From contig JAGVNC010000091.1 of NCBI GenBank assembly GCA_020053475.1, positions 1 to 46,057 of the forward strand: 46,057 nt of DNA, read 5' to 3'. The notes under the pieces are model-generated. The model did not search any database, was not told the origin of the DNA, and saw nothing but the letters and a program-made list of their open reading frames with translations. Shown one piece after another: positions 38,920-46,044 of the stretch; the first letter of the stretch is position 1, and each line of letters begins with the position of its first letter. Made by a program: the position numbers and the translations under genes. Source of the DNA: Candidatus Omnitrophota bacterium (GTDB lineage: Bacteria > Omnitrophota > Gorgyraeia > Zapsychrales > Zapsychraceae).

Positions 38920-41900
38920 TTATGCCCCAGGGACAGTGTCGGCTTGGCTGTTTTCACCCAAAATCAACGGGATATTGGCGGGGACGATTTTGTAAATCAC
39001 CGGCACAAGGCCGTTAAAATCCATGTTTTCCAATTGTTCAAGCGTCGGCACTGGAAATTCCGCGCCTTGACCCTGTGTTTCGATCTCAAGGCCGGCGGGG
39101 TTCAAATCAATCCCCCCTTTGTCGGGTGTCGTGGGAGATGCGGGAGCACCTATATACTTAAGCTGCGCCGCGGCCTCAGCAAAAGAAAGAGCCAATGTAT
39201 GTTTATTCCCAAACCGGACAACAACGATTCTCTCTCCGTCGCGCGTAGGCTTTCCTTTAATGACTCCTCGCCCGAATTTTGCGTGCTCGATGATATCGCC
39301 CTCTAACCAATCCCCCACCATCGCGGAGTCCGATTCAAAGGAATCGGACCCAGTCCCACTGGCAGGCGGGACCGGGTCGAGGGGCTTGTCATCCGTCGGC
39401 GGCGCGAGCTTTTTCTCAAAATAATCTTTCACTTTGGTTAATTCTTGGGCCACTTGGGCCATCGTCTTGGGAGACCTTTTTTCTTGATTGAGTTCAAGCA
39501 TATTCTGGACCAACTGTTTTAACCCACTGCTCTCCAAATCCATCTCCGGCAATTTGCCTTCAGACAACAATTTAAAAGGATGCGGCGGCTCCTTCCCTAA
39601 AAAATAATATTTAAACAATAACCCCAAACTGTAAATATCGGATACCGGCACACGAACCCACTCAAGAGGCACATATCCTTTTGTTCCTCGCGTTGCCATG
39701 TCGGTGCCAACAGGGCTGGCGATACCAAAATCAATTAACAAAACCTCCCCCGCCTGATTGATCACAATATTCGAAGCGTTAACGTCGTTGTGGACATATC
39801 CGGCGTCGTGAATGGATTGTAACGTTTGAACTACTTTAATGAAAACATCCAGTCGTTGAGGAACGGTAAACCCCCTCATGACAGAACTTATAGAGTCAAA
39901 TTTAATCCCTTTTAACTTCAGCCAAATTTCTCCTGATAATGTCACGCCAATCGCTAACACTTGAGGGATATTTTTAACACCCCTCTTATTTAATTCCACC
40001 AGAACAGCAGCTTCGCGCAAAAGAAGCTCTTTATTACTCACTCTTTTATCCAGGGGCGGCGAACTACGCTTATAAACAATCGTATCGTCGTTAGGATCTT
40101 TAAATATTCTGGCTGACCCTCCTTGGGTTGCATATTCATAGCTCTCAACAGGAATCTCGGCGCGTTCAACAGAATTTCCAAACTTTTCAGTGATTCTATC
40201 CAATACGGCACTACGATATTCTGGAGCAGAAAGATCGGATGAAATCCCCGTCAATATCAAAGTATCGAGGAAAGAAGGCCTGTCGGAATCTCCCCCCACC
40301 ACCGCACCATCGGCTTGTGCCTGTAAGCTCTTCGGATACAGACCTTTTAAATCAATGCCCCTAAACTTATTTGTCATATGACGCTCATAAAACGCTCGCG
40401 GAGAGCTGGGATACGCTTGGTCCCAATATTTTGCGCCTCTTTGGGTAAAAAGATCGTCCGCCGGCTCTCCTTTATAAAAAATCCCCATTCGCGCCAAGGC
40501 GATGGAAATGGCATTCAATCTTAGGACGCGCTTTTTCCCGTCGGAATCCCAATAATAAAGGACAACGTCCTGCTGCCCCTCAAAGGCCCGAGACATAAAT
40601 ACATCATAACGCCCCCCCTCGAGGATGTTAACACGCTGGGATGTTTGCTCAAAAATCTCTTTGTATGGCGCAGCCTGGTGATCACTCCCGCGTCCATATA
40701 AACGGCCCTCGACGTCCTTAATCCCATAACGGAAGTACTTTTGCCAAGCCGGACGTGTATAAAACCATTTAGCAAAAGTACCGGTAATAGGGACAAACCC
40801 ACCGTTGACCAGCACGTGATAGTCATGGCTCAACCGATCCGCCTTCAAGCCTTCCTGTAACAAATGTTCCATCCGATCGGCAATTTTGTCGATTGCATCC
40901 TGAACCGAGTGTTGCTGCCCTGTGGCCGCTGTCATTTCCTTCGCGATGGCTTCTAGCTCCGCCTGATCTTGGGCAATAAATTCGCTTGCCTCTCCCCACG
41001 TAACTTTGTCTTTGCCTTTAAATTCTCCCAAATTATAGACCGGCCTTTCCGTATCCGCGCCCACCGGACGATTTAAAAACCAGACCCCTTTTTCACCTAC
41101 AGAAAAACCTTTCCCCACCATCGCGGGGTCGGACAGCGGATCGCTGAGGGAGTCAGAGGCCTCATTCCCTGAAGGACTATAAATCATCGTATCGATCACT
41201 GCGCCCATTGAACCTGGCTGAACAAAGACGCGCCCATAGCGATCACGTTCGTTTCCTATGCGCAGATTCTCTGGATCTAAATAGTCCCACTCTTGAAATG
41301 GTGAAATGCCGAGATCGGTCAATAGAAATGGTTGTGAACGTAATTGGGCATCTGCGGCGATCCCCTGGACAACGTCATTGAGATCAAACCCTTCAACAAC
41401 AGGATCAAAGACTCGGATGCTGCGAACACCCAAATGACCAAACTCCTCATCTAACAAGTACATCATTGATGGAGAATTTTCGTTTTCTTGTCTTTGAGGG
41501 GTGCGTTCCATATGATATGCTCCGCCAAACAGGGCAATTTTATACCCAAGATTATTTCCGGCGGCACTTTTAACTTCTTGAACAAGATCTTTTTCCCGTA
41601 AAAAAGCAGTAATGGGATTAATGTCGCGGGCACGTGCATCAAATCCAAAGACTTGAATAATATATCCTGCTTGATGTAATTTTCGTAAAGCACGCAAGAT
41701 ATGTTGCCCTCCCGGTAATATGACAACGGACAGATCATCGACATCTGCATTCAAATAAGCATTCATCGCTGCCGTATCATCAGGATTTGTTTCAAGCCCA
41801 ACCAGAAGTTTTCCTCCAGGATGAGTCTCAAGAAATTTTTGGATGCCAGCAACAAAATGCTCTGCAGGTTTCGGGCTGAAATGATCTCCTCCCATACCCA

Positions 41901-46044: not shown

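Follow-up and report, generated by a model that had tools for sequence, protein, structure and literature searches.

Viral and eukaryotic polyproteins carry several complete enzymes on one chain, and the same short peptide recurs wherever two of them are joined; this joint peptide is constant within a genome and differs between lineages. A gene of comparable layout lies at 38920-46044 on the minus strand of contig JAGVNC010000091.1 (GenBank assembly GCA_020053475.1, Candidatus Omnitrophota bacterium), within the stretch of 46,057 nucleotides analyzed here (the window). It differs from those systems in being bacterial, in having a signal peptide, in belonging to a set of about 18 separate genes and in showing no protease module, the cutting being something that we infer. 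Very long modular open reading frames (ORFs) of unclear role have been described in the same phylum, and the accessible part of that report presents Omnitrophota ORFs of more than 20 kb, mostly with few annotated domains, transmembrane (TM) or adhesin domains and a suggested surface or extracellular role (PMC10066038). That part describes neither a boundary motif nor a pair of N- and C-terminal domains, and the members of the present family that we examined measure ~1–17.5 kb, so none exceeds 20 kb. In the PEP-CTERM/exosortase, LPXTG/sortase and similar sorting systems, too, many exported proteins of a lineage that have little else in common end in a conserved domain, but the C-terminal domain found here is not a short motif, TM and basic tail signal, the repeated motif is internal, and the window protein matched no PEP-CTERM or sortase signal model in Pfam or NCBIfam. 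Finally, eukaryotes fuse consecutive glycolytic enzymes behind a targeting peptide, as in the TPI-GAPDH fusion of two enzymes with its mitochondrial targeting sequence; compared with the fusions covered in the accessible part of that source (PMC3527533), the Omnitrophota chains differ in joining up to four or more enzymes, in being exported and bacterial, and in having boundary peptides and end caps.

The organization of the window protein is as follows.

38920..46044, minus strand: giant polyprotein ORF, 2374 amino acids (aa), export predicted
45856..46044, minus strand: signal peptide predicted from the sequence, residues 1-63, with basic n-region, hydrophobic core and the ending AHA ahead of Q
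44893..45852, minus strand: N-domain, ~320 aa, conserved, without Pfam, NCBIfam or PDB match
44704..44721, minus strand: boundary motif 1, DGAMLS, D at residue 442, behind the N-domain
42865..43515, minus strand: PP2C phosphatase domain (PF00481, 1.7e-10), with DGSGG, GDS, SDGL and DDIT present
42766..42783, minus strand: boundary motif 2, DSAMVG, D at residue 1088
42151..42168, minus strand: boundary motif 3, DGAMVG, D at residue 1293
41113..41130, minus strand: boundary motif 4, DPAMVG, D at residue 1639
40294..40311, minus strand: boundary motif 5, DGAVVG, degenerate, D at residue 1912
39469..40095, minus strand: protein kinase domain (PF00069, 4.1e-15), with HND...N and DFG present
39313..39330, minus strand: boundary motif 6, DSAMVG, D at residue 2239
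38920..39117, minus strand: conserved C-domain, GGIDLN...G(F/L)xPVIxxIxPxxxLPLLLG

All six motifs quoted in the original prediction are present, at residue numbers 3–4 below those given there. Its statement that the motif stands at every boundary is nearly right: one site is degenerate, and no motif separates the last (Tudor-like) module from the C-domain. The tetrapeptide pattern D.AM occurs five times in the window protein against ~0.27 expected (P ~1e-5). Both the PP2C and the kinase appear to keep their key catalytic motifs (Pfam scan followed by inspection). The earlier claim of an exported multi-enzyme polypeptide is supported.

This ORF belongs to a group of about 18 related proteins encoded by its genome, where D-x-A-M clusters were also found in other giant ORFs by pattern search. 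The N-domain gave 18 matches there, some of them pieces of a single gene, and the C-domain (~65 aa, GGIDLN..GFxPVIINIxPVxNLPLLLG) gave 16; a signal peptide ending AxA-Q preceded the N-domain in 10 of the 10 family N-termini inspected. The end domains concentrate in a single Omnitrophota order, with the C-domain present in 27/29 sampled genomes of the same family and order and in 4/208 others, and the N-domain in 27/29 of the former plus 43 additional genomes from the same class, mostly as weaker matches. Nearly all named loci with an N-domain come from Omnitrophota metagenome-assembled genomes. Neither end domain of the window protein had a match in Pfam or NCBIfam. The N-domain had no PDB relative by sequence, and its AlphaFold2 (AF2) model (predicted local distance difference test, pLDDT, 75; predicted template modeling score, pTM, 0.77) gave no PDB fold match with E below 0.17; the C-domain model was too weak for use (pLDDT 67, pTM 0.31). 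A 24,583-aa open frame in genome G195 (C19, L181-L184) was rejected as an artifact, a run of masked N bases. In other lineages, the C-domain itself (L135, L143 and L161 are examples) contains a conserved D-P-A-M-[LIF] that resembles the boundary motif and may be either a coincidence or its origin. Translated sequence resembling a genomic repeat (DSRFRGND; GSPVILKRVQGDES) was seen in a polyprotein C-domain (L147) and in a linker (L131, residues ~365-390), and one family member, at the CAIOTT01 loci (L124, L158, L167), carries some 16 copies of a WSPQGDR-type repeat.

Pooling 20 related ORFs of the source genome, 69 D.AM were observed against 4.0 expected, or 68 against 3.6 in shuffled cores (19-fold); the longer form D-x-A-M-[LV]-[AGST] was counted 68 times, where ~4 would be expected for D.AM. 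Because a boundary test based on BLAST ends gave too few module matches across genomes, placement was assessed with Pfam intervals, and in the 16 chains scanned all 89 motifs lay outside the Pfam domains, although 16.9 would be expected within them (p ~7e-9), which bears out the proposal that the motif marks domain borders and is not placed at random. The chains thus share, as polyproteins do, a sequence at the joints that is absent inside the folds. The sites lie directly behind the N-domain, between modules and ahead of the C-domain (within 40 aa of the latter in 10/16 chains of the source genome, 11/13 of G195 and 5/6 of G115), with a median spacing of 274 aa and flanks that look like linkers, rich in P, S, and T upstream and in D and K downstream. 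The occurrence of similar motifs in other Omnitrophota, mentioned in the original prediction, is supported. The joints of one G115 chain read GAPDH/DQAMVA/PGK/DQAMTT/enolase/DKAMVA/../DQAMVA/aldolase/DQAMIT/C-domain, and the isocitrate lyase (ICL) module starts behind DAAMLS in the source genome and behind DSAMLS in G195, so that this joint motif persists across two genera although the modules are 31% identical. A structural preference for a helix cap or loop, a plain effect of composition with no recognizer, is disfavored and we regard it as very improbable: the D-P-A-M-[LIF] conserved inside other C-domains does indicate that such a string can be ordinary local structure, but the 19-fold enrichment, the absence from Pfam domains and the replacement of the motif by an unrelated peptide throughout whole lineages (see below) all speak against it.

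In sister lineages the equivalent places are occupied by S-S-P-[VIL] (SSP[VILA] counts 13/0.2 and 12/0.2), in genus g7 by D-x-S-M-[LMF]-[GS], including D-x-S-M-L-G, and in Aceula by an SS-type peptide. Such coordinated replacement across many proteins of a genome would fit a single trans-acting recognizer. Across the genomes with the D-x-A-M type, D, A, and M are fixed while x and the codons vary, and therefore the peptide seems to be selected as a peptide. These lineage-specific types, the fixed end domains, the family of ~18 members and the DNA uniformity of the motif (see below) go beyond the original prediction.

Between the end domains the chains carry very different enzymes. Within the source genome, C53 encodes an acyl carrier protein, malate synthase and isocitrate lyase with KKCGHM; C60 an acyl-CoA dehydrogenase (the alignment covers almost the full length), MutS V, ThiG and WD40; C85 a pyridoxal phosphate (PLP) enzyme, glutamate dehydrogenase parts and phosphoglucomutase; C86 a NUDIX, a phosphodiester glycosidase and a glycosyltransferase; C92 has a GH116 module and C25 a helicase. 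The G115 chain on C80 (L220), of 2991 aa with a signal peptide, contains near full-length GAPDH, PGK and enolase together with a match to class II aldolase, while the chains of G195 combine TIM, aldolase and ICL, or AceK and a 2-hydroxyacid dehydrogenase. PGK modules also occur in chains of G128 and G187, and since ordinary stand-alone PGK genes coexist with them, G115 included, the polyprotein copies are extra paralogs. Catalytic signatures look intact in several modules (GAPDH SNASCTTN, enolase SHRSGET, ICL KKCGHM). Judged by sequence, several complete proteins are present in one ORF, as the term polyprotein demands. In L075 (C85 of the source genome), at residues 1423-1855, the C-terminal part of glutamate dehydrogenase stands ahead of its N-terminal part, and the enzyme looks circularly permuted.

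In other bacteria, GAPDH, enolase and PGK are known to moonlight at the cell surface. This, together with fixed domains at both chain ends and a short motif repeated in the linkers, would suit a chain that stays whole, its peptide acting as a docking site or swivel that binds a chaperone, a secretion component or a surface-anchoring component while the enzymes are displayed at the cell surface. The motif also stands directly at both end domains, however, as sites releasing the caps would, and we consider this possibility unlikely.

At the DNA level, the motif in the source genome is uniform, GAC NNN GCG ATG STG, with codon use far from that of the same genes elsewhere (GAC 72 vs 33%, GCG 74 vs 26%, GTG 77 vs 23%, CTG 66 vs 12%), a bias also visible in relatives. 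The string GACNNNGCGATGSTG has 30 copies in this genome, each of them on a contig and strand that also bears a polyprotein ORF, against zero for its reversed control. The motif type is similar within each gene (p < 0.0005), and the linker PSSPSVGLDSAML occurs twice within one gene. As in a mobile DNA element, the nucleotides are more uniform than the amino acids require; copies outside these genes or in other frames, which such an element should have, were not seen among the 30. This uniformity points to recent copying of linkers at the DNA level, perhaps with module exchange. It also speaks for the idea that the motif matters chiefly as a short stretch of DNA, copied between linkers as a recombination seam that promotes module shuffling, the peptide being a neutral flexible linker. 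Yet the low-GC G115 and other genera keep D, A, and M with other codons (GAT, GCA), the SSP-type genomes use serine codons of all kinds with no codon uniformity, the reading frame is fixed despite a free middle codon, and the GACNNNGCGATGSTG pattern is abundant solely in the source genome (the next-highest genome has 9 copies). We therefore judge this explanation improbable, if slightly less so than the uncut docking chain. Internal translation starts at the motif ATG were rejected, since the flanking DNA shows no Shine-Dalgarno-like constraint.

The explanation that we favor, to which we give about an even chance, is that these are exported polyproteins with linkers that a trans-acting factor reads and, most likely, cuts. 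The ORFs themselves show a Sec-type signal peptide, the N-domain, a variable set of complete enzyme modules and the C-domain, with the short peptide of the lineage in the linkers. After export a single trans-acting factor would recognize this peptide; it is most likely a protease, and cutting would free the N-cap, the modules and the C-cap as single enzymes outside the cytoplasm. Because they resemble one another, the linkers could double as seams for the gain or swap of modules, spreading motif DNA within the gene and the genome. A more specific version seems to us tentative and on balance doubtful, namely that the lineage exports glycolysis, glyoxylate-shunt and signaling enzymes as Sec-targeted polyproteins, cut by a lineage-specific protease at D-x-A-M (or SSP), and so builds an extra-cytoplasmic or host-directed metabolic compartment.

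Several points weigh against exported and cut polyproteins. It would be puzzling to find CoA-, NAD- or ATP-dependent enzymes outside the cytoplasm, and the PGK module of G128, at least, seems to have a degenerate catalytic site. Some joints have no motif, and D.AM is sparse or absent in G176, G136, G218 and G158/G219, of the same order, which keep both end domains. The uniform motif DNA could stem from copying instead of function. Lastly, no dedicated protease was found among the S8 family of the window's subtilase, the caspases and the linked genes, other peptidases not having been screened. Genes next to the polyprotein genes showed no recurring family except generic ones such as response regulators. 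Two candidates for the protease were rejected, the subtilase of the window (33491-34252), which is nearly absent from relatives (2/237 genomes), and the caspase-type C14 peptidases, which are absent from the clade. This subtilase (253 aa, secreted, with intact triad motifs) belongs to a small cluster at 31631-34252 on the minus strand, together with a beta-barrel-like exported ORF and a Gly-rich small exported ORF.

The open-access literature yielded nothing on Omnitrophota polyproteins, on the present family or on the D-x-A-M motif. Given this, the negative searches in Pfam, NCBIfam and PDB, and the combination of features, we appear to be looking at an unreported bacterial polyprotein system with putative cutting at the joints; if the chain stays uncut, it would be fairer to speak of a variant form among the giant modular proteins that are exported. 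If cut, these chains would represent a large bacterial polyprotein system exporting enzymes normally confined to the cytoplasm, would provide a set of co-evolving cleavage sites and would open the lifestyle of uncultured Omnitrophota, with host-directed or compartmented metabolism, to experiment. Even if uncut, two unannotated domain families found in nearly all sampled members of the order call for an explanation, as does a linker peptide that varies from one genome to the next.
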